Of a stretch of 64,000 bases of DNA, positions 14,366-30,500 are shown one piece after another. The stretch comes from Sagittula sp. P11 (GTDB taxonomy: Bacteria > Pseudomonadota > Alphaproteobacteria > Rhodobacterales > Rhodobacteraceae). The DNA lies in NCBI RefSeq assembly GCF_002814095.1, contig NZ_CP021913.1, forward strand, positions 1,488,001 through 1,552,000. The letters run 5' to 3'. The stretch's first letter is position 1, and every line of letters begins with the position of its first letter. Position numbers and translations under genes: made by a program. The notes under the pieces were generated by a model. It worked only from the letters and a program-made list of their open reading frames with translations. It was not told where the DNA came from and did no database searches.

Positions 14366-15607
14366 ATGACCCTCACGCGGCGAAAGCTGCTTATGTACGG
14401 CGCGGCCCTCGGTCTGGCAGGCTGCAGCACGTCGGCACCGATACGCGCCCCGCAAGGCACAACGCGCGATCCCTCCCTGCAACCGCAGCCGAATGCCGCC
14501 TACGATCAGTGGGTTGCGGCCTTCAGAGGCCGTGCCCAATCCCGCGGGATTTCCGCCTCGACGCTGGACGCCGCCTTTCGCGGGCAGGGATTCCTGCCCG
14601 GCGTGGTGGAGCGGGACCGCAACCAGACGGAATTCAAGCGCAGCCTCGAGGACTACCTCGCCATCGTCGCGCCCGAGGAAAAGGTCACCTTCGGGCGGCG
14701 CGCCGTGTCGGCGCATTCCGGACGGCTGGCACAGGTGGAGGCGCGCTACGGAGTGGACGCCGACGTGCTGGGCGGTGTCTGGGGGCTTGAGAGCTACTTC
14801 GGCACCCGCCGTGGCGACATCCCGGTGATCTCGTCGACCTCGACCCTTGCATGGGAAGGACGGCGGGGGGCGTTCTTCGAATCCAACCTGATGGACGCGC
14901 TGCGCATCCTGCAGGCGGGCGACGCCACACCGCAGCAACTCGTAGGAAGCTGGGCGGGGGCGTCGGGCCACACCCAGCTGATGCCCAACGCCTTCCAGCG
15001 CTACGCCGTCGACTTCGACGGCAACGGCCGGCGCGACGTCTGGTCCGACGATCCGATCGACGCCTTCGCGACCACGGCCCGGTATCTGAGCGAGAACGGC
15101 TGGCGCAAGGGGCAGCTCTGGGGGCTGGAAGTGCTCCTGCCCGAGGGTTTCTCGGCGCAGATCGGGCGCGGCACACGGCGCAGCGTCTCGGAATGGCAGA
15201 ACCTTGGCGTCCGGCCCGCGCGCGGCGGCAGCCTGCCCGACTACGGCGCGGCAGCGGTCGTGGCACCGATGGGCGTGGACGCGCCTGCCTTCCTCGTGTT
15301 CCGCAACTTCGACGTGATCCTGCGCTACAACCCGTCCGAGAATTACGGGTTGGGCGTCGGCTACATGGCCTCGCGTCTTGCGGGCGGCGGACCGCTGGTG
15401 GGCCGCTTCGGGCGCGACCGCTACGGGCTCGACCTCGACGACCGGAAAGCGCTGCAGAGCGGACTGACGCGCGCGGGCTTCGATGCCGGGACGCCTGACG
15501 GCGTACTGGGCAAGAAGACCGAGGCGGCAATCCGCGCCTTCCAGCAGTCGCGTGGCATGACAGTCACCGGCACACCATCGCGCGAACTGCTGAACGCCGT
15601 GTCGTGA
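14366..15607 (+). CDS. lytic murein transglycosylase lipoprotein with peptidoglycan-binding domain
   Basis: A 413-residue outer-membrane lipoprotein predicted to cleave glycan strands. The signal peptide ends in lipobox LAGC (Cys at residue 19). The SLT_2 catalytic block runs about residues 45-330 and includes GGVWGLESYFG (catalytic Glu) and GASGHTQLMPNAFQRYAVD. A PG_binding_1 domain of about 60 residues closes the protein (GLTRAGFDAGTPDGVLGKKT). It is longer at the C terminus than the paralogue at 8778, and only this one is a lipoprotein. GGAG lies directly before the ATG. It runs convergent with the RTX-Hint gene, three bases apart. Confidence 0.92.
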   Translation: MTLTRRKLLMYGAALGLAGCSTSAPIRAPQGTTRDPSLQPQPNAAYDQWVAAFRGRAQSRGISASTLDAAFRGQGFLPGVVERDRNQTEFKRSLEDYLAIVAPEEKVTFGRRAVSAHSGRLAQVEARYGVDADVLGGVWGLESYFGTRRGDIPVISSTSTLAWEGRRGAFFESNLMDALRILQAGDATPQQLVGSWAGASGHTQLMPNAFQRYAVDFDGNGRRDVWSDDPIDAFATTARYLSENGWRKGQLWGLEVLLPEGFSAQIGRGTRRSVSEWQNLGVRPARGGSLPDYGAAAVVAPMGVDAPAFLVFRNFDVILRYNPSENYGLGVGYMASRLAGGGPLVGRFGRDRYGLDLDDRKALQSGLTRAGFDAGTPDGVLGKKTEAAIRAFQQSRGMTVTGTPSRELLNAVS

Positions 15608-15610
15608 CGC

Positions 15611-18241
15611 TCAGGCGCTGATCAGCAGACGGGTCTGGTAGGCCTTCAGCATCGGGCGGGCGGCCATGTAGGCTTTCCGCCCGACATCGACCTTCAGTTC
15701 CGGGAACAGGGCGAACAACTCGTCCCGCTGCGGCGCGTCGAGCCCGGCAAGGGACAGATCGCCCGGCTGGAAACTCTCGGTCCACAGCCCTTCGGACATG
15801 ACCAGTTCGTGCCGGTCGAACATGAAGTGGATGTAGCTGGTCCCCTGCCCCGGCAGGAGCTGCTCGATCCCCGGCAGCCCTACGAGGTGCAGCGCCGCGG
15901 CAAGGACCTCTTCCTCGCCGAAGAGCAACTCCACCGGCGCCCCGGTCATCACCACGCGATGCTGCGGCGACACCATCATGTCACGCTCCGGATGGCCGGG
16001 GCCAAGCGCGCCCTTGCGGATGAGGATCGGGCAGAACGCCTGTTCGGCCGCCAGTTGCCGGGACGACAGGGACTTGGCGCCGCACCAGCGCACCGCCTGA
16101 TAGCCGTTATCACGGGTCAAAAGCCGGTCGCCCACCCGGATCTCCTCGGCCGCGACGTCCCCGCGCAGGGTCTTCAGCCGCGTGCCGGGTGTGAAACAGG
16201 GCACGTAGTTGATGTTCTCGATCTCCGAGAACGTCAGAACCGATCCGTCCTTCCAGGTGACCGTCCCGGCCTCTGCCCCCGTCATGTTGATCGCGGCAGA
16301 CCCCGAGATGTTCAGCGTATCGCCTGCCTTCTCGCCCGCTTCGCCGCCGATGATCGTCAGGGCTCCGCCGTTCAGGTCCGCCGGGCCGACAAAGAAGGTG
16401 TCGTCGCCGTCGCCGCCCTTGGCCACGTCGCCCGACCCGGCGTGGAGCGTGTCATTGCCCGCCCCGCCGTCGAGGCTGTCCGATCCCTCCAGACCGTAGA
16501 GGTCGTCGTTGCCTTCACCGCCCAGTACGGTGTCGTCGCCCTCGCCCGCGTTCACCGTGTCGTTGCCAGCGCCAGCCACGATGCTGTCGTTGCCGGCCCC
16601 CGCTTCGATGCTGTCATCGTCGGAGAAGTCCGCCGCGTCGCCGTCATCGATGTGATCGCCATCCGGGTCGCCGGTGTAGCCCGCGTCGATGATGTCGTCG
16701 CCAGACGTGCCTTCGACCACGTAGTCGCCCGCGAAGGCCGGAATACCCATGGCCACCAGTGCCTCCGGCGCCGAGATCTGCGCCGCCGTCAGCCCGGTCA
16801 GCACAAGTATATCGCCCGAGGGGAAGGTCAGGGTCGCGTCACCCGTGCCGTCGCCATTGGTGTCACCGACCACCACGTCCTCGACCGAGACCGGCAGGCC
16901 CCAGAAATCCGTCAGGTCGGAGACGTCCAGCAGGTCCCTCCCGGTGTAGGTGCCGTCGCCGTTGTCGATGGGGCCGTCGAACCCGGCAATCACATCGGTG
17001 CCGGATCCGTCCGCCAGCTTCAGCGTGTTCACGCCGGAACCCAGCACGATGGTCTCCACCTCGTCGAAGACCAGCGTGGAGGTGCCGTCAGTGACTGTGC
17101 CGACCTCCGGGTTGAGGTTCGACAGGTCGATGGTCAGGTCATCCGTGACGGCAGAGAGGTCGAGCACGTCGCCGGTGGTTTCGGCCACGCCCTCCGCGTC
17201 GACGGTGTCATTGCCAAAGCCGTTCTCGATGATGAAGGTGTCGTCGCCCCAGCCGCCCCACAGGTAGTCGTCGCCCGCGCCGCCATAGAGGATGTCGTTG
17301 TCGTAGGACCCCCGCAACCAGTCGTTGCCCGCACCGCCATAGAGGGTATCGTCGCCCTCGTTGCCCTCGACAGTATCGTCCCCATCGCCGCCACTGACAA
17401 AATCGTTGCCCTGCTCGCCGTAAAGCGAATCCGAGCCGTCTCCGCCGAACAGGCTGTCGTCGCCCTCGTTGCCCGCGACCAGGTCATCTCCCAGACCGCC
17501 CTCGATGGTGTCGTTGCCTGCGGCGCCGCGCAGCGTGTCGTTGCCGGTCCCACCGGTCAGGCTGTCGTCACCGGTGCCAGCGATGACACTGTCGTTGCCG
17601 TCCAGCGCGTCGAAGGTCAGGTCGACGGAGGACACGGAAGCATCGACCGTATCGTCCTGGTTGGTCAGGACGAAGTGCTCGATACCTGAGAACGTGCCAT
17701 TGTTCGTGCCGTCGCCGAGAAACCCGCCTTCGTCGGCGTTGAAGGTGAACTCGATCCCTGTTGCGGTGAACCGGGACGCATCCAGCGTGTCGTCGTCGCT
17801 GCCGGTGGTGACGGTCTCTCCGCCGTGCAGTTGCTCTCCGGTCGCGATGTCGGAGATCATGAGCAGGTCGGCATCGGCGCCGCCGTCCAGCGTGTCGGCA
17901 CCGCCCCCGGCAAATATCGTGTCGTTGCCGTCTCCGCCGGACACGTTCTGGCTTTCGTCTCCAAGGTCGAAACTGTCGTCCCCGGCCGTGCCGATCTGCG
18001 CGTCGAAATCGCCTACGACGCCACTGCCCAGCTGTGCGTCGGTTCCGGCCGACCCGGCGTTGCCGATGGTAAAGCTGGTGACGCCGTCGGAAATCGTCAT
18101 GACGCTGGTGGCGCCGTCGAAGTCGAACGAATACGCCGCGCCAAGCGCCGACAGGTCGAGGGTGTCGCCGTTCGAGGCATCGATCGCAGACCAGAAACCC
18201 GGCTGGTTCCAGTTCGATGTTGTTACAACGTACGTGGCCAT
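15611..18241 (-). CDS. RTX calcium-binding repeat protein with C-terminal Hint domain
   Basis: An 876-residue protein, acidic and without a cleavable signal peptide, as expected of type I secretion substrates. The N terminus (MATYVVTTSNWNQPGFWSAI) starts a family-typical cap. Clusters of GGxGxDxUx nonapeptide repeats follow, which bind Ca2+ in parallel beta-rolls. The Hint (hedgehog/intein) domain begins at Cys682 (PCFTPGTRLKTLRGDV) and runs to the C terminus, with VSPQHRVVM as the conserved His block. Hint domains of this kind may self-process. ATG at 18241 is chosen because GGAG lies about 10 bases upstream; the frame opens 11 codons earlier without family sequence. No type I transporter is nearby. 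Confidence 0.88.
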   Translation of the reverse strand: MATYVVTTSNWNQPGFWSAIDASNGDTLDLSALGAAYSFDFDGATSVMTISDGVTSFTIGNAGSAGTDAQLGSGVVGDFDAQIGTAGDDSFDLGDESQNVSGGDGNDTIFAGGGADTLDGGADADLLMISDIATGEQLHGGETVTTGSDDDTLDASRFTATGIEFTFNADEGGFLGDGTNNGTFSGIEHFVLTNQDDTVDASVSSVDLTFDALDGNDSVIAGTGDDSLTGGTGNDTLRGAAGNDTIEGGLGDDLVAGNEGDDSLFGGDGSDSLYGEQGNDFVSGGDGDDTVEGNEGDDTLYGGAGNDWLRGSYDNDILYGGAGDDYLWGGWGDDTFIIENGFGNDTVDAEGVAETTGDVLDLSAVTDDLTIDLSNLNPEVGTVTDGTSTLVFDEVETIVLGSGVNTLKLADGSGTDVIAGFDGPIDNGDGTYTGRDLLDVSDLTDFWGLPVSVEDVVVGDTNGDGTGDATLTFPSGDILVLTGLTAAQISAPEALVAMGIPAFAGDYVVEGTSGDDIIDAGYTGDPDGDHIDDGDAADFSDDDSIEAGAGNDSIVAGAGNDTVNAGEGDDTVLGGEGNDDLYGLEGSDSLDGGAGNDTLHAGSGDVAKGGDGDDTFFVGPADLNGGALTIIGGEAGEKAGDTLNISGSAAINMTGAEAGTVTWKDGSVLTFSEIENINYVPCFTPGTRLKTLRGDVAAEEIRVGDRLLTRDNGYQAVRWCGAKSLSSRQLAAEQAFCPILIRKGALGPGHPERDMMVSPQHRVVMTGAPVELLFGEEEVLAAALHLVGLPGIEQLLPGQGTSYIHFMFDRHELVMSEGLWTESFQPGDLSLAGLDAPQRDELFALFPELKVDVGRKAYMAARPMLKAYQTRLLISA

Positions 18242-18496
18242 TTCAGCGGTTCTCCAGCCCGCGCAACGCGACATGTCCGGCCACAGGCCGGTTCGGATCG
18301 GCGGGATCCCCCGGACCGTTCAACATGTGCGGCAGCTGCGCGATTCAATTATGACTTCAGGGCGTCTGCTCGTTGTCCAGAAACGCGAAGAATGTGACGC
18401 AAATAGGCAGATTTGGCGGTATCTTGACGAAATCGGAAACCAACGGCCAGCCGCCGCGCACATTGTTTCAGCCTCTCCAAAGGCTGTCTGGCGGGT

Positions 18497-20104
18497 TCAG
18501 AGAAGGGCGCGGATCGGGTCCAGCAGACCCTTGTTGCGCAGCGTCCGCACCGGGTAGGTGTCGTCGTTGATGAGCTTGTCGAGACTGAAGCCCGGCTCGA
18601 TCTTGGCCATCTTCCTGGCCACAGCCTGCGCCTTTTCCAGATCGCCCTGCATGGCGTAGAGCGCGAGCAGGTGGCGGTGCGCCGGGCGCGACAGGGGCGC
18701 GGCGCGGGCGGCGGCCTCCCCGGCTTCGATTGCGTCCTGTGGCCGGTTGCAGGCGATGGCGATCACGCAGTGCCCGGTGTCCCAGTAGTGGCGGAACGGC
18801 GAGGTCCGCGCGATGGCGCAGGCGCGGGCCGAGGTCTTGTAGGCGCGGTCTAGGTCACCCGCCAGCATGTAGCCTTCGGACAGCGACTTCAGCGCATAGG
18901 CAGAGGCCGGGTTGCGCTCCACCGCGTTGCGCGCCATGTCGATCACCCCCGCGGTGTCCCCCACGGTCGTGGCCCGGACCTTGGCGACGATGGACTGCAC
19001 CAGCGCATTGTCGGAATCCAGTTCGATGGCGCGGTAGTACAGCTCCATCGTCTCGTCCATGAGGTCGCTCTGGTCCGCCTCCGACAGCTCCATCATCTGG
19101 GTCATGCGGATCAGGCTGCACCACGCGAGGTAGATACCCGACGGGTCGTTGCGGAAGGCCTGATCCATCAAGCCGTAGGCTTCGCGCAGGGCATCCTGGT
19201 CGAAGCTGAACATGCGGTAGAGCCCCAGCCGCGACAACGCGGTCGAACGCGACTCGGGCCGGTCCTTCTGCAGCACGTGCGGCAGCTTGCCGAGGATCTG
19301 GTCCGCCGCCTCGAAAACGGTGCGGGCGACCGCCTCCTCGCTGTTCATCACGTCCTCCAGCCGATCGATGCGCTGGAGCTTGGAATAGAGGATCCGCGCA
19401 CTGGGCTGGTGCACGGCCTTCAGGAACAGCGTGTGGCCCTCGTTGTCCTGCACGATCTGGCTGTGGATCACCACGTCGCTGTCCGGCGCCTCGATAGCGC
19501 CCGAAAGCTCCGGGTCGGCCTGACGCCAGGCGCGCACCTGCTCGCCGATGTTCTCGCCGATCTGGTTGGACAGGACCTCGCTCATGATCTGGCTGTGCAG
19601 GCCACCCGACACGTCGCTGCGGCAACTGATGAGAACGCCCTTGCTGTCCGACGGCGTCGCGCGGGAGATCATCGTCTGAAGCTGCGCGCGCTCCTGCCTG
19701 AGCCAGTCCTCGAACTCCGGATCGCGGACGTCCATGCCTTCCAGCAGCTCGGTGCGCTCGTCGCCGGGGACGACCTCTTCCAGCAGGTCGACACGAACAC
19801 CGGCCTGCTCCAGCCAGACGGCGCTGCGGTCCGACCCGAGGCGCACCGCCTCATCGCCGAGCGCGCTGCGCAGCTTGGACAGGGCCTGTCTGAGGTTGGC
19901 GCTGGCCTGCTCGGGACCGAAGGTCGACCAGAGCTTGTCCTCGAGCCAGCGGCGGGTGCGGTTCATGCCGGGGCTCAGCGCCAGCATCGCGATCAGGGCC
20001 TGATTCTTGGCGCCTTTCGGGGTCAGGTCCATGCCGTTCGGACCGACCACCCTGAAGGGGCCGAGCACCTCGATCCTCAGAATATTGTCCTGCGGTCCGG
20101 ACAT
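18497..20104 (-). CDS. SARP-like transcriptional regulator with TPR domain
   Basis: A 535-residue cytoplasmic protein. Residues 8-105 form an OmpR/SARP-type winged helix with LTPKGAKNQALIAMLALSPG and the recognition segment SANLRQALSKLRSALG. A transcriptional-activator (BTAD-like) region and a long TPR array to the C terminus follow (for example AYALKSLSEGYMLAGDLDRAYK). SARP-like proteins activate secondary-metabolite or accessory genes in actinobacteria; relatives with TPR tails occur in Rhodobacterales. AAGGGG lies six bases before the ATG. It is transcribed divergently from the PAP2/haloperoxidase gene, so it is a candidate regulator of that cluster. Confidence 0.75.
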   Translation of the reverse strand: MSGPQDNILRIEVLGPFRVVGPNGMDLTPKGAKNQALIAMLALSPGMNRTRRWLEDKLWSTFGPEQASANLRQALSKLRSALGDEAVRLGSDRSAVWLEQAGVRVDLLEEVVPGDERTELLEGMDVRDPEFEDWLRQERAQLQTMISRATPSDSKGVLISCRSDVSGGLHSQIMSEVLSNQIGENIGEQVRAWRQADPELSGAIEAPDSDVVIHSQIVQDNEGHTLFLKAVHQPSARILYSKLQRIDRLEDVMNSEEAVARTVFEAADQILGKLPHVLQKDRPESRSTALSRLGLYRMFSFDQDALREAYGLMDQAFRNDPSGIYLAWCSLIRMTQMMELSEADQSDLMDETMELYYRAIELDSDNALVQSIVAKVRATTVGDTAGVIDMARNAVERNPASAYALKSLSEGYMLAGDLDRAYKTSARACAIARTSPFRHYWDTGHCVIAIACNRPQDAIEAGEAAARAAPLSRPAHRHLLALYAMQGDLEKAQAVARKMAKIEPGFSLDKLINDDTYPVRTLRNKGLLDPIRALL

Positions 20105-20266
20105 GGATTACCCCTTAGGTCACGCGACGTTAACACCGGCTCACGAGACCGGCAACACTCGTGAAATTTCCGTAAATCAATTACTACAATTCGTTAAGCA
20201 ATTTGACGCAACGGCAGGCATCGGGTCTGAATTGGTCGAAATGCGGGGTTGGGGAGAAAAGACGGC

Positions 20267-21370
20267 ATGCCTGTATTCGGGATCGATAATCACCAGAACC
20301 ATCAGAACCACCAAAATCATCAGAATCACCAAAACCATCAAAACCACCAGAATCACCAAAACCACCAGGCGACGGAAAACCACCAGTCGGGCCCTGACAG
20401 CGGGTTCACCGGGGCGGCCCTCGGCATGGCGCGCGATGGCACGGTGGGGTTCTGGGACGGTTCGCCCGACCGCGAACCGCACCCCAACGGCCGCGACAGC
20501 TGGGCCGCGCTGAAGGCCATGGAGACCGGGCCGCGCCGGGCGGTCCTCGACCAGGCGCTGACGGGCATGTTCGGCGTCTCCCTCGACACCTCCACCGACA
20601 CCAACGACGAGGGGCGCGTGACCCTGGGCGGCGAAACCATCGTCACGCTGAAGAAACCCACCAACGCCTTCCTCGCCGAGCACCAGCTTGGCTTCCTGCG
20701 CACCTACGCCGACCTGCGCGGCGACCGGCTGTCGGAAATCGTCATGCAGACCGGCGACATCCAGAGCTTCTTTGCCCTCGTCGGCTACATGGCGCCGGAC
20801 GCCACAAAGTGGACGCTGGCCCTGAACCAGGCGATCTACCGTCTGTGCACGATGATCGAGCAGCCGCTGAAGCATGCCTTCGACGTGGCCCGCCCGATCG
20901 CCATGACCGCCAAGGTACAGCCGATCATCCAGACGCCGGGTCACGGGTCGTGGCCCTCGGGCCATGCCACCGAAAGCTTCGCCTCGGCAACGCTGCTGAC
21001 GCGGCTGTTCTACAACAGGGCCTTCGATCCGGTGCAGCAGATCGCGGACGGCAACGAACTTTACCGCCATGCCGAACGCATCGCGATGAACCGCACCGTG
21101 GCGGGTGTGCACTTCCCCACCGACAGCATGGCCGGCGCCGTCCTTGGCGTGACCCTGGCCGAAGCGCTGGTCCGGCTTCTCGACGGCGAGACCGAGGTCA
21201 AGGCGCGCACCTTCCACGGCGATGCCTATGCCGGCGACTTCACCCTGAAGGCGCTGACCGACGCGCTGGCCGGCAACACGATCATCGAGACGACATCCGT
21301 CACCTTGACCGCGGACATCATCCCGGCGTGGCTGCGCCGCATGTGGGCCGACGCCAAAGAGGAATGGTAA
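20267..21370 (+). CDS. PAP2/vanadium haloperoxidase-family protein with Asn-His-Gln repeats
   Basis: A 367-residue protein with no signal peptide. All ligand motifs of vanadium haloperoxidases and class A acid phosphatases are present: K202-x6-R209-P210, P230-S-G-H233, and R276-x5-H282-x3-D286. It could be a haloperoxidase binding vanadate or a phosphatase binding phosphate. Residues 8-34 are nine uninterrupted NHQ tripeptides, a histidine-rich tail with possible metal affinity. ATG 20267 is chosen for its GGGGAG 10 bases upstream over a TTG at 20249. It is divergent from the SARP-like regulator and upstream of the convergent subtilase. Substrate unknown. Confidence 0.85.
   Translation: MPVFGIDNHQNHQNHQNHQNHQNHQNHQNHQNHQATENHQSGPDSGFTGAALGMARDGTVGFWDGSPDREPHPNGRDSWAALKAMETGPRRAVLDQALTGMFGVSLDTSTDTNDEGRVTLGGETIVTLKKPTNAFLAEHQLGFLRTYADLRGDRLSEIVMQTGDIQSFFALVGYMAPDATKWTLALNQAIYRLCTMIEQPLKHAFDVARPIAMTAKVQPIIQTPGHGSWPSGHATESFASATLLTRLFYNRAFDPVQQIADGNELYRHAERIAMNRTVAGVHFPTDSMAGAVLGVTLAEALVRLLDGETEVKARTFHGDAYAGDFTLKALTDALAGNTIIETTSVTLTADIIPAWLRRMWADAKEEW
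20288..20368 (+). repeat. nine 9-bp tandem repeats encoding Asn-His-Gln
   Basis: Nine in-frame units of consensus AAYCAYCAR encode (NHQ)9. The units vary at synonymous third positions (AAT/AAC, CAT/CAC, CAG/CAA), so the protein sequence is uniform while the DNA is not. That suggests maintenance at protein level rather than recent slippage. Confidence 0.95.
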
Positions 21371-21466
21371 GGGTTTAACCAGTACCCGGCGCACGCCGGA
21401 CGTTGTCGGTGGGCCGGGGTGCTGCAAGGCGCCCCGGTGTTTCTTTGTGCGCCAGTCCGCTTTTCG

Positions 21467-23542
21467 TCAGACCGGCAGATCGGCGCCAGGCCCGCTGCCC
21501 TGCGCCACGACGATATAGGCCCCGAGCCGCGACCTGCGGCCCTCATCGACCTCGAACAGATCGAGGGCCGCCGGGTCCAGGTCGTCGGTCTGGGTGGTTG
21601 CCGGGTTCTGCGCGTTGGCCGCAATCAGCCCGGCCGAAAGCCCCAGCGCCCGCGTCAGGCGACCGGCAGCGGCGCTTGTGCCCCCCAGCCGCCGGGCGGA
21701 GCCGGACAACGTGCCGCACCCCCGTGTGCCGCCGGAGAAGGCGCCATGATCCACGAGCGTTGAAACCGTTGGGGTCGCCACCGTCCACTCCGACCCTTGA
21801 GCACTGTAGAACGCCGGGGCGAAGTTCGCATGGGTCGGCACCGGGTGACGCGGTGTCCAGACCGCCGCACCGCAGGAGAACACCTGACGCGCCGCGGTGG
21901 TGACCAGCGCATTGTGACAGCCGGACGGCGTCACCGGGCAGTCGTCCTGCGGCTGGGTGTAGGAGGCCGCCGTTTTGCTCCATCCGTAAGCGCCGGTGTG
22001 ATCGAAATAGGCCTGCCGCCCGCGCATGAGGCTGCCGCCAAGGGCGTCGTCGCGCTGGATCTGGCAGAGCACGCAGACCTCCGCGTCGCCATCCTGGCGC
22101 ACGTCGATGGTCCATGCGCCGGGCTGGGCCACCTCCTCGCGGGGTTTGCGCCGCTTGGTGGGGGCAAGGGCCAGCGTGTAATGCGCCGCCTCCACCCCGT
22201 CCGCTCCGGCGGGGCGCTCCGGCACGTGATACAGCCGCGCGACGGACGTGCCCTTGTCCTCCAGCGACACGATCTCTCCGGGCTGCAGCTTGAGGTAACC
22301 GGTGGTGGTCCCGTCCGGCGCGGTCACCGACAAGGCGAGATCGCCGGTCACTCCGCCGCGCGGATGGAATTCAACGAAGCTCGCGGTCATGTCGTCGGGC
22401 TGGACGCGGACCACGGCCTGCGCCTCCGCGCCCTGCTGAAGGTCGAAGGCGCACAGCAGGCCGTCTCGATAGCTGTTGCCGAAGGACCAGACGATGCGCA
22501 CGGGCTGGCCTGTCACCTCTTCCCAGACGCGCGCTTCACGCGCCAGTTGCCGTTCGACGAAGCGGGTGCCGTTCTTCGGCCCCGCGGTGATGCCCAAGGA
22601 CAGGTTGACGATGACCGGCGCTGCGGCGTCGATCTCTGCCGCGCGGCGCAGGATCCACCGCAGCCCCTGCACCATGTAGCTTTCGAACCACATGCCAGAG
22701 GTGTCGTCGATGGTCTCGGACGGCAGTTGCACCGCGATCAGCGGCCAGTCCCGGACGGGATCGTGCTCATCCAGCGGATCGGCCCCGGCGGCGAGGTCCA
22801 GCACATGCGTCCCGTGACTGGTCTGCGCCCCGAGCGCCGGACGCGTCCGCACCCCACCCAGCGCCCTGTTGAGCCGGGCATAGGTCGCGTCCTCCGGCAA
22901 GGGCAGCAGGGCGTCGATGTCCGCCGCGTTCAGCACCTGTCCCGACAGGACCCCACCCTCCGTGCTGCGGCTTTCCAGCGCCTGCAGCCAGACCGCGTGA
23001 AAGCGGGTGCGGGCGGTGCCGTCCGGCACGAACTTGCGGAACCGGGCGTTCAGGAACCCGACGCCGTCGTCGATGATCGCCACGATCGGGGTGCCCGGGG
23101 GGATGGCCTCTGCAGCTGGCGCGGGCCCGGGCGCGGACGCCACCGCTGCGGGCGCCTCCTCCAGCCGTACCGGGACGCCGGTGTCCAGCACATCGAACAA
23201 TGAAGCGTGTTCGCTGTCGGGCGTGCCGACCTTGCGGTACAGCGCGTATTCGTCCGGCAGGGCCGCGTGAGTCGCGGGGTCGTCGATGCGGGTCTGCAGG
23301 GCCTGCGTCTCGTGCGGGTCCATCAGCAGGACCGTGCTGGCCGCCAGAGCGTCGACCAGCGCCTGGCGCACGGCCAGCGCATCGGTCCCGGTTTTCAGCG
23401 CGACGAAGATCGGTTCGTACTCCGCTCCGCTGTCCGGACGCTCCGGCGGCAGGGCGTCCAGACGCTTGCCCAGCAGGCGCGACCAGTCGAGATAAGCGTC
23501 GCGAAAGGTGTGCGGCCGCGGTGCGCTCCAGGTAAAACCCAT
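21467..23542 (-). CDS. subtilisin-like serine protease (S8 family)
   Basis: A 691-residue protein with the S8 catalytic triad in order: Asp in IIDDGVGFLN, His in SHGTHVLDLAAG, Ser in LGGTSAAAG near the C terminus. Between His and Ser is a long insertion with the oxyanion Asn region (SFGNSYRDG). There is no signal peptide, and the first 140 residues are not a recognisable I9 propeptide. It is therefore probably cytoplasmic or exported by a non-classical route. ATG 23542 is chosen because a GGGGGGA block lies just upstream; the frame opens 21 codons earlier. It lies between two haloperoxidase-fold genes and diverges from the bromoperoxidase-like one. Target unknown. Confidence 0.88.
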   Translation of the reverse strand: MGFTWSAPRPHTFRDAYLDWSRLLGKRLDALPPERPDSGAEYEPIFVALKTGTDALAVRQALVDALAASTVLLMDPHETQALQTRIDDPATHAALPDEYALYRKVGTPDSEHASLFDVLDTGVPVRLEEAPAAVASAPGPAPAAEAIPPGTPIVAIIDDGVGFLNARFRKFVPDGTARTRFHAVWLQALESRSTEGGVLSGQVLNAADIDALLPLPEDATYARLNRALGGVRTRPALGAQTSHGTHVLDLAAGADPLDEHDPVRDWPLIAVQLPSETIDDTSGMWFESYMVQGLRWILRRAAEIDAAAPVIVNLSLGITAGPKNGTRFVERQLAREARVWEEVTGQPVRIVWSFGNSYRDGLLCAFDLQQGAEAQAVVRVQPDDMTASFVEFHPRGGVTGDLALSVTAPDGTTTGYLKLQPGEIVSLEDKGTSVARLYHVPERPAGADGVEAAHYTLALAPTKRRKPREEVAQPGAWTIDVRQDGDAEVCVLCQIQRDDALGGSLMRGRQAYFDHTGAYGWSKTAASYTQPQDDCPVTPSGCHNALVTTAARQVFSCGAAVWTPRHPVPTHANFAPAFYSAQGSEWTVATPTVSTLVDHGAFSGGTRGCGTLSGSARRLGGTSAAAGRLTRALGLSAGLIAANAQNPATTQTDDLDPAALDLFEVDEGRRSRLGAYIVVAQGSGPGADLPV

Positions 23543-23802
23543 CGAAATCCCCCCCTGTGTGCCTTTGCGTAAATCAAAGGCGGTTTCCATGGGCCGGTCA
23601 AGCAAGCCGCTGGAATGCCAAGGTGAATTGCGCAGAATTCACGCCCTCCGATGCGTGAATTACCGCCCCCTGAACCGCAATTAATCACGCATTCACGCGC
23701 AAATTGCGGAGCACTCACGGTACGATCACGCACGCTGCGCATGCTTGGGTCAACGCATCGTCAACAGCGCCTTCAGAGCGCCGGGACCATCCGGGGGAAG
23801 AC

Positions 23803-25308
23803 ATGACACGTACCCAGACGCCAGACCAGACAAGGGCCCGAAAGCGCGCCTCGACGCTGGCCACCACGACACTGAAGGTGATCGACGGCGGAGGTGCCCG
23901 GATCGGCCCCCGCCACCAGGCCATCGTGCCGGAGGCGCCGCGCCTCTGCGTCTCGGAACTGGCCGCCGACATGGCCGAGATCTTTGCCCTCTCGCTCTTG
24001 CGCAAGCGCGGTCTGGCCGACCTGGACGATCCGCACTGCGCGGTCTGGATCGACGGCGCCACGCATTTCACGCTGCACGAACTGCTCTGCGATCTGCGCA
24101 GCCTCGCATGGTTCGACCAGACCCGCAGTCTGCCGGAAATCGCAGGCGACGCCGAGGCCGAGCAGCGGCGCGCCCTGCGCTGGAACGCCGACGGGCAGCT
24201 TACCCTCAGGACGCTGTTCAACTGCGGTGTCGCGCTGCGCGGCACACAGACCCGCGTGTCGCGCTTCTGGAGCGGGGACCACGCCGGGACCGTAACCGAC
24301 CCGGTGCGCCGCCCGCCTGCACCCGATGCGCCGATGTCGGTGTGGCTCGACTGGTGCGGACGGCACAGCGGCGCAACGCTTCAAACGCCGCCTGAACGCG
24401 AAGGCGCCATTGATCCCGGCACGCTCGAGGACATGTCCGGCGGCCTGCACGAGACCCCGGCGGGCCGCCCCTTCTACAACGCCGCGCTCAAGGCGCTGGC
24501 CCATCGCGCCGCGCTCGACGGCGGGCTGGCGCTGTCGGAACCGATGTGGCGCGGCCCCCGCCTGCTGGCGCTCATGGCGGAGGCCGAGACCCGCGCCCGC
24601 CGTGCCGCGCTGGACCTCCTGATGTCCCGCAGCCGCCTGGCCCGGCCTGCCGTGACTGCCGCACGAATGACCGTCTGGCTGGCGCGCGAGGAGCGCGGGA
24701 ATGAACCGACGAACGCGCTCTACCGTGCCGCCGCCGACGAGCTGGCGGAATACGCACCGAACCTGCTGTACTGGGTCAGCCGCGACAATGGCACGCTGCG
24801 CGGCTGCCAGAGGTTCGACACCTCGCTTTTCCTGCCGCTGGCCGAACCGGAGCGGCAGGCGGTGCCACCCTCCGACTGCGCCAGCCATGTCGTCGTGGCC
24901 GGTGCCATGGCGACCCTGTTGAAGGCGGTGTTCGACACGTCGCGGCGCGCGCAGATCCAGATGGTCGGCACCACGGGACCGGCGCAGGCGCTGGGGGAAG
25001 AGGCGGACCGCATGGCCTCCAACATCGCGCTGGCCCGCATCGTGTCAGGCGGCTGGCATCCTGCCGAGAACATCCAGCAACTGCGGCTCGGTCAGGCCAT
25101 CGCGCTGCAGGTGCTGCGCGAGACGCTGGAGACCGACAACCGCAGCGCCACGCTCGACCTTACCGATTTCGACGACCGCCCGCTGCGGATCGAGGCGCAC
25201 CCCCGGCACTTCGGGCGGGGCTTTGCGCAGTTGCGGGCCAATGGCGCAGCGGTGCCCTGGCCACAGGAGGCCGCGCCGCCCGCCGCGCACCTGACCGCCG
25301 TCGTCTAG
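23803..25308 (+). CDS. vanadium bromoperoxidase-like protein with altered active site
   Basis: A 501-residue protein with no signal peptide. From memory of red-algal vanadium bromoperoxidases, several blocks correspond in order: SELAADMAEIFALSLLRKRG, LRSLAWFD, LTLRTLF, then SHVVVAGAMATLLKA (algal SGHAVVAGA...ILKA), and RMASNIALARI before the last ligand block. Catalytic positions differ. PSxxSGH is changed to PSDCASH with His362 kept. The final R-x5-H vanadate ligand reads R412-IVSGG-W418-H419, so Trp sits in the His column or His is shifted by one. RLRP has become RLARP (R281) and the preceding Lys is lost. It may be non-catalytic or use another substrate. GGGGGA precedes the ATG. Confidence 0.62.
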   Translation: MTRTQTPDQTRARKRASTLATTTLKVIDGGGARIGPRHQAIVPEAPRLCVSELAADMAEIFALSLLRKRGLADLDDPHCAVWIDGATHFTLHELLCDLRSLAWFDQTRSLPEIAGDAEAEQRRALRWNADGQLTLRTLFNCGVALRGTQTRVSRFWSGDHAGTVTDPVRRPPAPDAPMSVWLDWCGRHSGATLQTPPEREGAIDPGTLEDMSGGLHETPAGRPFYNAALKALAHRAALDGGLALSEPMWRGPRLLALMAEAETRARRAALDLLMSRSRLARPAVTAARMTVWLAREERGNEPTNALYRAAADELAEYAPNLLYWVSRDNGTLRGCQRFDTSLFLPLAEPERQAVPPSDCASHVVVAGAMATLLKAVFDTSRRAQIQMVGTTGPAQALGEEADRMASNIALARIVSGGWHPAENIQQLRLGQAIALQVLRETLETDNRSATLDLTDFDDRPLRIEAHPRHFGRGFAQLRANGAAVPWPQEAAPPAAHLTAVV

Positions 25309-26006
25309 CGCGCCGCCAGGTCGCGTTGCGCGGGCACGGTGCCCGAGATCTCGAGGATCAGCTTGCGCTTCACGGCCTCGGCAAAGCTGTCGCGGCTCTC
25401 TGCGGTCACCACGAAGGCACCCGGACCGCCGATGATCCGCTCTTCATAAAGCGCCTCAAGCCCGCCCTGTGCGCGCCCGGGATCGTCCGGCCGCAGGATC
25501 GGCAGGGCGTTGATCGTCACGCCCGCCGCCAGCACGGTATCGCGGGCCTCCTCGATGGAGGGCCCCGACCAGTTGTTCGCGCTGTCGCCCGAGAAATCGA
25601 TCACCCGGCGCCAGCCTTCATGCGCGTTGGTGTCCATCAGACGCAGCGCATCCAGCAGCGCAGCCCCGATGGCGTTGCGGCCGTAAGCCTGGCGCGGCTT
25701 GCCGGTCAGCTCGTCCGCAAAGGCCTGCGCCGTCTCCGGCCCGTCGATCAGCATCCAGTCGGCCACGACGGCGGTATTCGCCGCCCATTCGACATAGGTG
25801 ACCGCGATGCTGCCGTAGGCGGTGCCGCCGATGGCCGCCAGGACTTCCGGGTCGGTGATGGCCTGCGCGTAGCCCTGCCGCTGAAAGGCGATCTCGCGGG
25901 AATCGATGCTGCCGGAGGCATCCGCCAGCAACACCAGTTCGAGGTCGGTATCCTGCGCCTGCGCCACGCTGGCGCTGAGCAGAAAGGCCAAAACACGTGC
26001 CAGCAT
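25305..26006 (-). CDS. DUF1194 von Willebrand factor A-like exported protein
   Basis: A 233-residue exported protein with signal peptide MLARVLAFLLSASVAQAQ. The rest is a vWA-like fold of the DUF1194 family. The MIDAS-type metal-binding motif reads LADASGSID, and a second conserved block is RRVIDFSGDSANN. Such proteins are presumed to bind other proteins through a divalent cation in the periplasm. ATG 26006 is chosen over an upstream frame opening because a GGGGGAC block precedes it and the signal peptide begins there. Its 3' end overlaps the bromoperoxidase-like gene by four bases, convergently. Confidence 0.88.
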   Translation of the reverse strand: MLARVLAFLLSASVAQAQDTDLELVLLADASGSIDSREIAFQRQGYAQAITDPEVLAAIGGTAYGSIAVTYVEWAANTAVVADWMLIDGPETAQAFADELTGKPRQAYGRNAIGAALLDALRLMDTNAHEGWRRVIDFSGDSANNWSGPSIEEARDTVLAAGVTINALPILRPDDPGRAQGGLEALYEERIIGGPGAFVVTAESRDSFAEAVKRKLILEISGTVPAQRDLAAR

Positions 26007-26134
26007 CCGAAGTCCCCCACTTGTGATCGGGAAAAGGCTAGCACGGCGGCCGCGCACCTCCAGCCTTGATGCGTGTCAAGGCACGCAGAGGTGATCCGCG
26101 CCATCGTAGCCAGAGGGAGACCAAGGAGACCGCC

Positions 26135-26533
26135 ATGACCCGCCTCGCCATTCTGCTCTGCAGCCTCGCGCTGCCCGCTTTCGCACAGGATGCGGAGGTC
26201 GGGCGCGACCTCTTCACCCGACACTGCGCCACTTGCCACGGCCTCGAAGGACGGGGCGACGGGCCGATGGCGGGCGTGATGATGATCAAGCCGGTCAACC
26301 TGACCGAACTCGCCGCGCAGAACGGCGGGACCTTTCCGATGGAGAGGGTGGTCAAGCGGATCGACGGGCGCGATCCGCTGGTCAGCCACGGCTCGCCCAT
26401 GCCGGTCTACGGCGACTTTTTCGAAGGGGTTTTCGACGTGCCGATCAAGACCCCGGCCGGACAGCCCGTTCTGACCTCGCGCCCGGTCGTGGACCTCGTG
26501 GCCTTCATCACGCAAATTCAGCGGCAGGAATGA
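26135..26533 (+). CDS. small periplasmic c-type cytochrome
   Basis: A 132-residue exported protein with signal peptide MTRLAILLCSLALPAFAQ. One haem c site, CATCH, lies near residue 31, and a probable axial Met lies in GSPMPVYG. This is a monohaem class I cytochrome c, so it would carry electrons in the periplasm. AAGGAG lies seven bases upstream of the ATG. It is divergent from the DUF1194 gene and convergent with the HExxH lipoprotein, with one base between the stop codons. The redox partner cannot be inferred from the neighbours. Confidence 0.92.
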   Translation: MTRLAILLCSLALPAFAQDAEVGRDLFTRHCATCHGLEGRGDGPMAGVMMIKPVNLTELAAQNGGTFPMERVVKRIDGRDPLVSHGSPMPVYGDFFEGVFDVPIKTPAGQPVLTSRPVVDLVAFITQIQRQE

Positions 26534-26534
26534 G

Positions 26535-27218
26535 TCAGCGGCAGATGCCCTCGGTCTCCACGTCCTTCCACGGCACCCGCACACGCGGTGTCGTGATGAC
26601 ATGGTCCAGCCGGTCGATGGGCATCTCGGCGGCGATCAGGCTGCGCAGGCGGGCGGTGCGCGGCGCCTCCGGGTCCAGGAGACGGCAGCAGACGTATTCC
26701 TCCACGATGCTGCCCTGCTGTTCAAAGCCGTAGTCGAGAAAGCGCGTCGTGTTGTCCGGATCGAAGAGATAGGGGTCCTTCGATGCGACGTGCTCGTTCA
26801 GGGCCTTGAGCGGCGTGTAGCCGGTGCGCTTCCGGTTCTGCCATTGCCAGACATGGGTCGCCTCGTGGGCGAACAGCATGGCGTCCAGCAGGTCGACCTC
26901 CTCCGGCCAGCCCTCCAGAAAATCGGGGCGGTAGATGTCGTCGCGGATCATCACCTTGTTGAAGAGCACCGTGGCCGCGGGCGCGACGGTGACCTCGGTG
27001 GTTTCCGACAGCGGCGGCCAGATGCGTTCCTGGCACGTCGTGCGCGGGCGGACCGGGATCCGGTAGGTCATCGCACCTGCGAAATGGCCATCGACCAGCC
27101 GGATCTTCGAGGTGTCGAGGTCCGGGCCGTGGATGGCAGCCAGGTACTCGGCCTCCGACGGGGTCAGGGGCCGGCCACAGGCCGCGAGGAGAAGAAGAAA
27201 CAGCAGGGCAAGGCGCAT
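26535..27218 (-). CDS. HExxH-containing lipoprotein
   Basis: A 227-residue lipoprotein with a short hydrophobic signal and lipobox LAAC (Cys at residue 14). The segment MLFAHEATHVWQWQ contains HEATH, a zinc-metallopeptidase signature, and EEYVCCRL downstream could supply a further Glu ligand. The pattern resembles DUF4157-like or putative peptidase lipoproteins, but no family can be named with confidence. There is no good Shine-Dalgarno sequence before the chosen ATG, which is selected for the signal peptide. An alternative start lies 12 codons upstream. Confidence 0.68.
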   Translation of the reverse strand: MRLALLFLLLLAACGRPLTPSEAEYLAAIHGPDLDTSKIRLVDGHFAGAMTYRIPVRPRTTCQERIWPPLSETTEVTVAPAATVLFNKVMIRDDIYRPDFLEGWPEEVDLLDAMLFAHEATHVWQWQNRKRTGYTPLKALNEHVASKDPYLFDPDNTTRFLDYGFEQQGSIVEEYVCCRLLDPEAPRTARLRSLIAAEMPIDRLDHVITTPRVRVPWKDVETEGICR

Positions 27219-27562
27219 GGCCGGAGGATGGCGCGACGACGGGCGGATTGGCAAGCGGTGTCGGAGCGGCCACGCAAAAAAGAGCCAACCGTCTGGCGCC
27301 CGCGAATCCCATTCGATCCATCGACCCTTTCCAATTGGCCGCGCACTGGAAAACAGGGCAATTCACACGGTCCCGGTGTGGGGACGAATTGCCCGCAATC
27401 TGTGATTGTCAATCCGTGACGCAATCATCGCATAAGGCCCAATTACCGCATTCATAGACAAGTTCAAAACTTGCGCGAATTGACCGAAATCGGGCAGAAC
27501 TTTGTGCAATTTATGTCTCAGTGCCCCGTTTTTCCGTGGGCCGTTTTGAGGAAATTTTTCTC
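27219..27562. other. AT-richer intergenic region upstream of the giant RTX gene
   Basis: This 344-bp stretch has no credible gene. It is notably more AT-rich than its surroundings and carries many AATTG/CAATT words (for example near 27359, 27385, 27441 and 27479). Similar words occur in the divergent region between the subtilase and the bromoperoxidase-like gene. It presumably holds the promoter of the RTX gene. Confidence 0.55.
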
Positions 27563-30500
27563 TTGCCCACGATTTCCCAGTCGCAGATCGACGAGCTTCG
27601 CACCAGCGCGTCGACCGCCCTCTCCGCCCTGAACACAGCCTATGCCACGCAGGCCCTGGCCGAAACGCTCCCGCTGATCGGGACCAGCCTCGGCGGGTCC
27701 GTGAACGACGCGACGCAGGTGGTCGGCGACGTGCGCACCGCCCTTCTGAACGCCCTGTCGGCGCTGTCGGGGGCGGCCTCTTACACCGCCGCGGAACTGG
27801 AAATCGAGGTCGCCAACGCCCTGTCTTCGCTCGGCCTGTCCGGCGTCGTGGTCAGCGCCAGCGTCGGCACCGACAGCGTCACGCTGACACTGGGCGCCAG
27901 CGGCGAGGAAACCGCTCACCTCGGCCTTGCGGGCGACCTCGCCCTGCCCGGCCTGGGCCTGTCGCTTTCGGGCACCGCAGAGGTCGCCGCAGCCGCCGCG
28001 CTGAACCTGACGCTCGGGGTGGATGCTGCGGGCTTCTTCATCGAAACCGCCGGCTCGGGAGTGGACCTGTCGCTGGGGACGACCTCGGTCGATTTCGCGG
28101 CGACCGCCAATATCGGCGTCCTGAATTACATCGTCGCCGATGCCGGGTCCGATCTCGACCTCGACTTTGCCGTCGACCTGATCGACCCGAATGGCGACGG
28201 CATGCTGCGCCTGTCGGAGCTGTCGCAGGATTTCCTGAACGTCCTGCTGACCGGCGACGCCGATATCTCCCTTTCGCTCGCCGCAGATTTCGGCACCGGC
28301 GCCCTGCCCTCCGTCTCTACCGTGCTGGACGTGGACTGGCAGTTCGTCAACGCCACCGTGACGCCGGGCGATCAGAACATCAGCTTCGGCAACCTGCCGA
28401 CCGTCGTCCTGAGGGACGTGACGCTGGACCTTGGGACCTTCCTCGAAAACGTCATGCTGCCGATCTTCGACGCGATCGAGCCGCTGATCGAACCCGTGGG
28501 CAAGGCGCTTGAGGTCATCACCGCCGACATCCCCTTCCTGAAGTACTTTCCCGACTGGCAAGAGACGCTGGACCTGACCGGCGACGGCACGGTCAACCTC
28601 CTGGATCTCGTCAGGCTGGCGGCGCCGAACTTCGACCTGCGCCCGCTCGAGGACTTCATCGAGCTGGCCGAAGACGTGGTCAAATGGGCGGAATACCTGT
28701 CCTCCGTCAACCTCGGCGAGGCGGGTCTCAACTTCGGCGATTACGCGCTGGAGACCGGGCAGGACGTGCGGGCGCTTGCGTTCAAGCTGGCGGATTCGGA
28801 CCTCGACCTGCAGGGGCTGGCGGACAACCTGTCGGACGTGGTCGCCAACGTGTCCGGCAGCGACTGGGGCGCCGCCGGGGCGGATGGCACGACGCCGAAG
28901 GACATGCTGCAGGAGATGATCGAGGGCACCAGCTTTGCCCTGCCGATCCTACAGGATCCGGGCCAGGCGCTATCCCTGCTGCTGGGCGGCGACGCCGACC
29001 TCGTGGAGATCTACTTCCCCACGGTCGACTTCGAGGTGGGCGGCGACAGCCTGATCAACCTGCCGATCTTCCCGGGCATAACGGTCAACATCGGCGGATC
29101 CATCGGCGCCGCGTTCGATCTCGCCTTCGGCTACAGCACACGCGGACTGGCCGCCCCGGGCGCATCCGTTCTGGATGCACTCAACGGGCTCTACATCATC
29201 GACGGCGCCGGGCCGGAGGCCTCCGTCTCTGCCACCATCGACCTCGGCGCCTCGCTCGACGCCTATATCGCCAGCATCTACGGCGGCGGCAACATCACCG
29301 GGACGATCAACCTCGACATCGCGGATGGCATCCAGAGCGAACCGGGAAGGCTGTACTACGACGAGTTCCTGACGGCGATCACATCCAACCCGTTCAGCGC
29401 CTTCGACGCCTCCGGGTCGATCACCGCCGGGCTGTCGCTGGCCGCGAAAGTGCTGGGCGGCGACCTTTTCCGGCTGGAGACACCGCAGTTCACCCTGGCG
29501 GACTTCAACTTTTCCGGGCGCGCGGCGCTGGCGACCTCCACCTCCACGCTGGGGCTGGGCGCACTGTCGGGTGGCACGCTGACCCTGAACACCGGCGCGC
29601 TCGCGGGCAACCGGCTGGTCGGCGACGCCGCGGATGGCGCAGAGGTGGTCTATGTCAGCTCTGCCGGCGGCAGCGACGTCACCGTCTCGATCAATGGCTA
29701 TGCCGAGACCTACGGCGGCGTCGCGCTGCTGCTTGCGGCCGGAGGGGCGGAGAGCGACCAGCTTGTTCTGGCCGAGACGCTGTCCATCGCCGCGCAGCTT
29801 TCGGGCGATGCCGGCCACGACATGCTCGCGGGTGGCGCCGGTGACGACACGCTGGAAGGCGGCGACGGCAACGACACGCTCTTCGGGCGCGACGGCGACG
29901 ACAACCTCTCCGGCGGGATCGGCGACGACCTGTTCTATGGCGGCAACGGTGCCGACACCATCGTCGGCGGCGACGGGGAGGACATGGTGACCTATGTCCT
30001 GTCCTCCGCCGGGGTGAACGTGAACCTCGGGACCGGGAACGGCACGGGCGGCAGCGCCGAGGGCGACAGCCTGTCCCAGATCGAGGTGCTTCAGGGCTCC
30101 AACCACCGCGACACGCTGACCGGCAGCGCCGGGAACGAAATGCTGATCGGCCTGCTGGGCGACGATTCCGTCGCGGGCGCCGGGGGCGACGACGTGCTTC
30201 TGGGATCGGAGGGTGCCGACACGCTGGACGGCGGCACCGGCGCAGACACCATGGTCGGCGCGATGGGCGATGACGTGTACTTCGTCGACGATACCGGCGA
30301 CGTGGTGGACGAGAACCGCTACGGCGAGATCGGCAACGGGACGGTCAGTGCCGCGGCGGGCGGTGTGGACGAGGTGCGCGCGGCGATCAGCTGGTCCATC
30401 GCCACCGGCAGCCAGTACCAGATCGAGAACCTGACCCTGATCGGCAGCGCCATCTCCGGCACGGGCAACGATAACGCCAACGTGCTGACCGCGAACCAGT

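Follow-up and report, generated by a model that had tools for sequence, protein, structure and literature searches.

The window analysed here is a 64,000 bp stretch of Sagittula sp. P11 (contig NZ_CP021913.1, positions 1,488,001 to 1,552,000). It carries a gene for an enzyme of the PAP2 fold, a divergent gene for a SARP-like regulator with a TPR superhelix and, on the other side of the enzyme gene, a subtilase (S8) gene followed by one for a bromoperoxidase-like protein (Table 1). The divergence of the regulator gene had been noted in a preliminary description of this DNA and is correct. The S8 gene lies on the opposite strand, which rules out a single operon of PAP2, S8 and bromoperoxidase-like genes. 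The PAP2 protein opens with a tandem repeat of a short peptide, the unit of which is swapped between lineages, and one part of the regulator co-varies with this unit. Fetched locus regions from other genomes are numbered L### and the genomes of the scans G###, G000 being the window's own.

Conserved regulator, PAP2 enzyme and protease genes

The PAP2 protein of the window matches Pfam PF01569 (6.8e-14) and has the superfamily motifs K-x6-RP, PSGH and R-x5-H-x3-D. Residues K208, R215, S237, H239, R282 and H288, counted from the open reading frame start at 20249, are invariant in 13 out of 13 aligned proteins, and the ligand motifs are thus intact as first described. Across a 71-row alignment the K, S, H, R and H are invariant and the first Arg is conserved in at least 90% of rows. 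The structure model has a mean predicted local distance difference test score (pLDDT) of 89.5, falling below 50 for residues 1–41. Its closest folds are class A acid phosphatases, followed by a bacterial vanadium iodoperoxidase (template modelling score by target 0.66 for acid phosphatase 7f17 versus 0.24 for iodoperoxidase 4usz), and the profile search likewise places class A acid phosphatases nearest. Fold and profile suggest that the enzyme is nearer to a class A acid phosphatase than to a haloperoxidase, and the earlier label of active haloperoxidase, an activity defined by vanadate-dependent halide oxidation, is at most tentative.

In the S8 protein D179, H264, N377 and S644 are invariant in 13 out of 13, leaving the oxyanion Asn and the Asp/His/Ser triad intact, the latter as previously noted. 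Alone against Pfam the protein gives no match up to 0.1; the family profile matches the Csp germination subtilases at 1e-20 (best 9sj6). The S8 partners share an N-terminal DAYLDW-type motif ahead of the protease domain, which is perhaps a docking motif. No signal peptide was recognised by eye in the PAP2, S8 or bromoperoxidase-like protein.

The PAP2 and S8 genes are found together in relatives. In 61 genomes (the window's own and 60 relatives) PAP2 relatives occur in 17 and S8 relatives in 11, and all 11 S8-bearing genomes have a PAP2 match within ~2 kb, in G005 with the regulator gene between. The best named match to the PAP2 protein in the genome scan is from Sagittula marina (74%; near-identical records may be excluded). 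Of 93 regions (80 named loci, kept from at least 579 relatives, plus another 13), 92 contain PAP2 and 91 of the 92 also contain S8, the exception being L079, which ends before an S8 could appear. The remaining region, L048, is from a same-genus genome and keeps the regulator and bromoperoxidase-like genes without PAP2 or S8. BLAST of the sequence between those two genes found no PAP2 or S8 remnant; the pair were therefore probably lost together. More widely, and counting the window's genome each time, the PAP2 search gave matches for the family sample in 109 of its 394 genomes (E up to 1e-25), for the class sample in 13 of 385 (1e-15) and for the phylum sample in 19 of 398 (1e-20), two of the last being outside the class.

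A set of 214 fetched regions was reduced to 189 non-redundant PAP2 genes, not counting the window. Of these genes, 177 have a regulator with TPR no more than 700 bp away, and S8 is within 600 bp of 174 of the 179 that are full-length, measured between stop-to-stop frames. The families therefore co-occur and are not scattered, as would be expected of the proposed grouping. Five full-length genes are exceptions: in L057 the regulator intervenes, in L071 the distance is 1.0 kb, in L207 the contig ends, and in L263 and L288 no S8 comes before the contig end. Half of the ten shorter PAP2 genes (L152, L153, L154, L155 and L157) adjoin a Peptidase_A4 (G1, eqolisin) gene instead, with Pfam matches of 1.5e-28 to 2.3e-18. 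For the others there is an S8 beyond the regulator in L156 (1.6e-10), an S8 in L167 (9.7e-18), a marginal papain-like match in L159 (0.0048) and an S8-like frame seen by eye in L168. The protease class can change between S8 and G1/A4 while the PAP2 enzyme is kept, and the core module is the regulator, PAP2 and a protease.

The bromoperoxidase-like protein is not a general member of this module. It matches algal vanadium bromoperoxidases at 1.4e-14, and we take the aligned active-site residues to have the roles that they have in those enzymes. The Lys is absent in 23 out of 23 rows, such that none has the full vanadate site. The vanadate-ligand His is kept in 4 out of 23 and lost in 19, the acid/base His is kept in 10, and both Arg are kept in all 23; neither His is present in the window, and the altered active site first described is evident. 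In a narrower set the ligand His is lost from 6 out of 7, L047 being the keeper. The decay of the site is uneven between rows. The gene was found in 7 of the 61 genomes and accounts for 23 alignment rows with the window counted, where PAP2 has 87, and it stays with the regulator in L048, where PAP2 and S8 are gone; a core role is therefore ruled out. Of the three-gene grouping first proposed, PAP2 and S8 stand as a conserved module, whereas the third protein is, from the aligned sequences, an accessory of the Sagittula-related clade with a degraded site.

Direct repeats of ~11 bp near the -35 box are typical of SARP regulators. Inspection of 17 sequences by eye showed a conserved direct repeat, CGTKAA-N5-CGTKAA, in the intergenic region between the regulator and PAP2, where it lies upstream of a TTTGAC-like box. 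A relaxed form of the pattern has 63 matches in the 427,518 bases of 32 close-clade loci, against 1.2 in shuffled sequence. Of these, 29 are upstream of PAP2 (within 520 nt of the core; 29 out of 32 loci) and 34 are upstream of S8 (within 420 nt of the match; 22 out of 32 loci), with none elsewhere in these loci. The 32 loci were chosen because the motif was first noticed there; the PAP2-side matches define the motif and those on the S8 side are independent. Where the bromoperoxidase-like gene is present, the S8-side sites lie between it and S8 and may serve both. Occurrence of the direct repeat at both promoters would therefore place the two genes, despite their opposite orientation, in a single regulon in the relatives, and it is a candidate operator of the regulator. 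In L048 the direct repeat (7787–7803) and the regulator are kept though PAP2 and S8 are gone, and this regulator may be left with nothing but its own gene or the bromoperoxidase-like gene to control.

The repeat leader and its co-variation with the regulator

The PAP2 proteins open with a perfect tandem repeat of 2–6 residues, which in the window is NHQ repeated nine times. Perfect repeats of at least 12 residues are present in 182 of the 189 genes and of at least 18 residues in 167, compared with 2 and 1, respectively, for the first 90 residues of 1123 other predicted genes from the same regions. The main genome searches were blind to the leader, the query lacking it and the peptide patterns lying in the core; only the 61-genome scan used the whole PAP2 protein of the window. 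There are 108 distinct units, with a period of 3 in 146 genes, 4 in 25, 5 in 5, 2 in 4 and 6 in 2. Examples are NHQ (Sagittula), NSQ (Mameliella and relatives), GHE, GYD, GWD, GGK, AGR, SGD, GGGA and GQ. In seven genes the scored segment contains no repeat of 12 residues (L088, L159, L167, L168, L220, L227 and L286). L088 is truncated at a contig end, L167 has an SR repeat further in, L220 has AAF in short blocks, L286 has an imperfect six-residue repeat and the PAP2 frame of L227 has no repeat.

Conservation of the leader is at the level of the protein. Of 86 distinct arrays (L043–L135), 71 are perfect in protein and none is perfect in DNA, which rules out recent DNA slippage as the origin of the repeats. 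Between adjacent units there are 1679 synonymous and 26 non-synonymous codon differences, where all possible single changes in the arrays would give 5888 and 17259. Arrays were extended only through units with one mismatch at most, so that non-synonymous differences are undercounted at the edges of arrays. The excess of synonymous differences indicates that selection keeps the exact protein repeat. At the same time the unit itself turns over: a tree of 142 regulators requires at least 93 changes between the 86 units on it. The leader is thus under protein-level selection while the unit is swapped between lineages. Slippage does in general create short tandem repeats, and the genes might be ordinary neighbours in a conserved cluster with a slippage-prone, functionless leader; with a repeat in 182 of 189 genes, and with perfection in protein but never in DNA, this is very hard to credit. 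Several genomes hold two or three modules, and the units differ between modules in L223, G004, G007, G288, G634, G662 and G727. Such differences within one genome fit private pairs of enzyme and reader, yet the number of units is such that chance alone would give the same.

The AlphaFold model of the regulator (mean pLDDT 93.2) is consistent with a winged helix and TPR; the middle domain between them is TolB-like. Among solved structures, the CadC periplasmic domain and superhelical TPR proteins come closest in fold. SARP regulators combine an OmpR-like winged helix with a BTAD/TPR part. By profile the regulator of the window matches the AfsR model at 4.3e-10, far below that model's cutoff, Trans_reg_C at 0.035 and, weakly, the HilA/EilA model (3.2e-4). 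No membrane segment was recognised by eye. The output domain varies between loci, with a class III cyclase and TPR in L152 and Trans_reg_C and TPR in L160.

Within the regulator, residues 301–435 of the TPR superhelix follow the repeat unit. Units were permuted only within clusters of related loci, at three cluster thresholds, and pairs of loci sharing a unit exceed the identity expected from the other domains in this segment by 0.071, 0.055 and 0.055 (0 out of 1000 permutations each). For S8 the excess is 0.001–0.004 (415–635 out of 1000), which is no co-variation and rules it out as the reader of the unit. The excess is negative for the winged helix and for TPR residues 436–535. Earlier forms of this test agree in direction, and of 1513 columns scored the 40 with the strongest tie to the unit comprise 21 in the TPR, 11 in S8, 8 in PAP2 and none in regulator residues 1–300. 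Linkage of the genes alone is insufficient as a cause, because their divergence places the winged-helix end of the regulator gene next to the leader and the TPR end far from it.

These results bear on an explanation in which the protease chops the leader into identical peptides, read by the TPR regulator as a message in the manner of RRNPP systems and of tandem pheromone precursors. Identical units with synonymous drift, their lineage specificity, the adjoining protease and the co-variation of the TPR are all as a multi-copy signal would have them. A protease cutting every unit should, however, itself co-vary with the unit, and S8 does not; in addition, plain units such as GGA or GQ make poor specific signals and the leader is joined to an enzyme that is itself conserved. 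It is therefore an unlikely explanation.

Charge at a single residue of the regulator provided a prediction. The discovery alignments left out L056, L057, L064, L085 and L116, which are from the same genomes as earlier loci, and L088, which ends with its contig. In a scan of 601 charged columns, column 382 was the strongest (r -0.71). It is K or R with 14 of 15 acidic units compared to 8 of 52 neutral ones, and D or E with 7 of 12 basic units compared to 4 of 52 neutral. The prediction of opposite charge was fixed beforehand, then 96 new regions were fetched. Together with L160–L168, which had been fetched before the prediction and were outside the discovery set, these form a held-out pool of 105 regions. 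Dropped from it were L167, L168, L227 and L286 (no usable repeat), L223 (two PAP2 genes), 19 duplicates of at least 97% and 17 loci without a SARP-type regulator scored at least 200, leaving 64 regulators. The predicted charge was found in 7 of the 8 loci with charged units, or in 6 of 7 without L162 (NAD), which is from the earlier nine. The PAP2 cores of these eight are 33–77% identical to the nearest in the discovery set. Basic units have D or E at 382 in 3 out of 3 loci versus 2 of 60 others (p 2.5e-4). By negative correlation the column ranks second of 609 in the held-out loci and first of 701 in all data. A weaker prediction for column 345 ranks fourth in all data (-0.42) and is outside the ten strongest held out, and no claim is made for it. 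In the AlphaFold model residue 382 is in the turn between helices 367–380 and 384–397, a TPR helix A/B turn.

This complementarity at one TPR residue, predicted and then found, and the domain-level signal of TPR residues 301–435 would be surprising if the leader were a self-associating low-complexity tail, involved in homotypic packing or condensates, to which the TPR was tied only indirectly. Such a role would suit the composition of the units, all 108 of which contain G, A, S, N or T but no Cys, and the low pLDDT of the leader (~39). It is nevertheless improbable.

A possible tag-reading circuit

The evidence favours a three-part control circuit, probably cytoplasmic, in which the repeat is a handle read by the TPR of the regulator. 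From the sequence patterns above, we would give this a probability of about one half. The regulator, with its winged-helix or cyclase output and TPR reader, would control the enzyme and protease genes via the common direct-repeat operators. The PAP2 enzyme would present many identical copies of a short peptide at its N-terminus, and the first half of the TPR superhelix would bind this handle. In this way the regulator could sense the amount of tagged, uncut enzyme, and the enzyme may be restrained by the same contact. The protease would probably remove the handle or cut the complex, resetting the switch. The most economical form of the circuit would be a feedback switch, the regulator sensing tagged enzyme and the protease removing the tag; the binding itself, the sign of regulation, the target of the protease, the substrate of the enzyme and the location in the cell are matters of inference. 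A more elaborate form, which would be a new kind of intracellular recognition code and in which successive TPR modules each read one unit, enzyme and reader are private pairs and the tag is maybe freed by the protease as a multi-copy messenger, is possible, with the balance somewhat against it.

A number of observations weigh against the circuit. Excess identity tied to the unit is seen in the PAP2 core (0.013–0.021; 3–31 out of 1000 permutations) and in the TolB-like domain (0.012–0.015; 1–5 out of 1000) as well. In the discovery set the net charge of the PAP2 core correlates with unit charge at r -0.47, compared to -0.29 for the TPR, and nine PAP2 columns are below -0.35. In the held-out loci PAP2 core column 104 ranks first, at -0.47 versus -0.46 for regulator 382. 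Acidic units held out have K or R at 382 in 4 of 5 loci versus 21 of 58 others (p 0.076), and neutral units often have K or R there too (20 of 54 held out). Pairs that are independent on the tree are too few to reach significance: three, with a mean of 2.4 agreeing and 0.0 opposed, and five, with 1.7 agreeing, 0.0 opposed and 3.3 showing no difference. The window itself has the candidate operator on the PAP2 side only, with no match upstream of S8, and its matches are at chance level (5 versus 8.05 expected). L263 and L288 show no S8 before their contigs end 3.1 and 2.4 kb downstream, and no protease adjoins PAP2 in L158.

The charge of the PAP2 core runs against that of the unit, with column 104 ahead, and the leader may therefore touch its own enzyme. 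This would also suit a zymogen or effector, where the leader is an inhibitory or localising tail and its clipping by S8 or G1 unleashes the PAP2 reaction, as in protease-activated conflict systems. Csp proteases, which activate a zymogen, are the nearest to S8; the catalytic residues of PAP2 and S8 are conserved; and the protease class changes while the enzyme is kept. This leaves unexplained that TPR residues 301–435 track the unit most strongly and S8 not at all. Furthermore, a PADLOC scan of eight proteins gave no convincing anti-phage match, the best being a single weak one (0.0045), and the intracellular defence role proposed earlier gains nothing from it. Clipping of an inhibitory tail is thus also unlikely, and of a similar order to the chopped peptide message.

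Surrounding genes and comparison with known systems

The RTX/Hint gene adjoins the regulator (Table 1), and a relative of it is near the regulator also in L043, L044, L048 and L050. On the other side, the DUF1194 gene, the cytochrome c gene and a further gene with a lipoprotein-like start by eye (25305–27254 together) are beside the module in several genomes. Downstream is a very long open frame of 3397 amino acids (27521–37714, + strand).

Table 1. Features of the window in the region of the module, with positions in the window
Feature	Position	Strand	Evidence
Lytic transglycosylase	14366–15607	+	
RTX/Hint protein (RTX calcium-binding repeats and Hint_2 domain)	15611–18274	-	Homology
SARP-like regulator, 535 amino acids: winged helix, TolB-like middle domain, TPR superhelix	18497–20104	-	Homology, AlphaFold model, fold search
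Regulator TPR residues 301–435, part co-varying with the repeat unit	18800–19204	-	Co-variation tests
Codon of regulator residue 382	18959–18961	-	
Direct repeat CGTGAA-N5-CGTAAA, 11-bp period, candidate operator of the regulator	20160–20176	+	Pattern counts in relatives
PAP2 / class A acid phosphatase-vanadium haloperoxidase fold enzyme, 367 amino acids	20267–21370	+	Pfam, alignment, fold and profile searches
Repeat leader (Asn-His-Gln) x9 near the PAP2 N-terminus	20288–20368	+	Sequence; family pattern
S8 (subtilase) protein, Csp-like	frame 21467–23605, likely ATG 23542	-	Alignment, profile, adjacency
Bromoperoxidase-like protein, degraded active site	frame 23704–25308, likely ATG 23803	+	Homology, alignment
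DUF1194 protein	25305–26057	-	
Cytochrome c	26066–26533	+	

All of the parts belong to known families. To our knowledge, no enzyme has been described whose tandem tag is homogeneous, switches between lineages and co-varies with a TPR reader paired to it; the system as a whole would be new if the co-variation reflects real recognition. A description of the module or the repeat was not found in the titles and abstract openings of one open-access library. If the TPR does read the repeat, this is a natural evolution experiment in modular peptide recognition, with 108 ligands in this set, and a natural specificity table for designers of repeat proteins. The enzyme would then report its own amount or integrity via a periodic tag, perhaps erasable by the protease, giving a testable role to a PAP2-protease pair of 109 out of the 394 family genomes sampled.

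The individual components have relatives in several systems. Class A acid phosphatases and vanadium haloperoxidases share the fold and all six active-site residues of the enzyme; the repeat leader and the linked protease and regulator set the PAP2 protein here apart. The Csp subtilases of spore germination are the best profile match of S8; what differs is that the partner here is a PAP2 enzyme and the hosts are Alphaproteobacteria. Protease-activated bacterial effectors such as bacterial gasdermins are similar in that a protease of changeable class is beside a conserved partner, but here the partner is an enzyme with a repeat handle and there is no defence evidence. In the CadC/HilA/SARP group, the CadC periplasmic domain is the top fold match of the regulator and HilA/EilA a weak match, and the direct repeat of SARP regulators is present as a sequence pattern in the relatives. 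Here, however, the regulator is paired with PAP2 and a protease, and its TPR follows the leader of an enzyme.

RRNPP quorum-sensing regulators are TPR receptors of short peptides and the nearest functional analogue of the module. Common to both is a TPR regulator that reads, or here would read, a short linear peptide from a neighbouring gene. In RRNPP systems a small gene beside the receptor encodes an exported precursor, and the receptor binds the peptide once it has been imported. A TPR regulator is present here and, among frames of at least 60 amino acids, the repeat is the N-terminus of the 367 amino acid enzyme. The differences are that the peptide here forms tandem copies within an enzyme, and that the output is a winged helix or a cyclase with a TolB-like domain.

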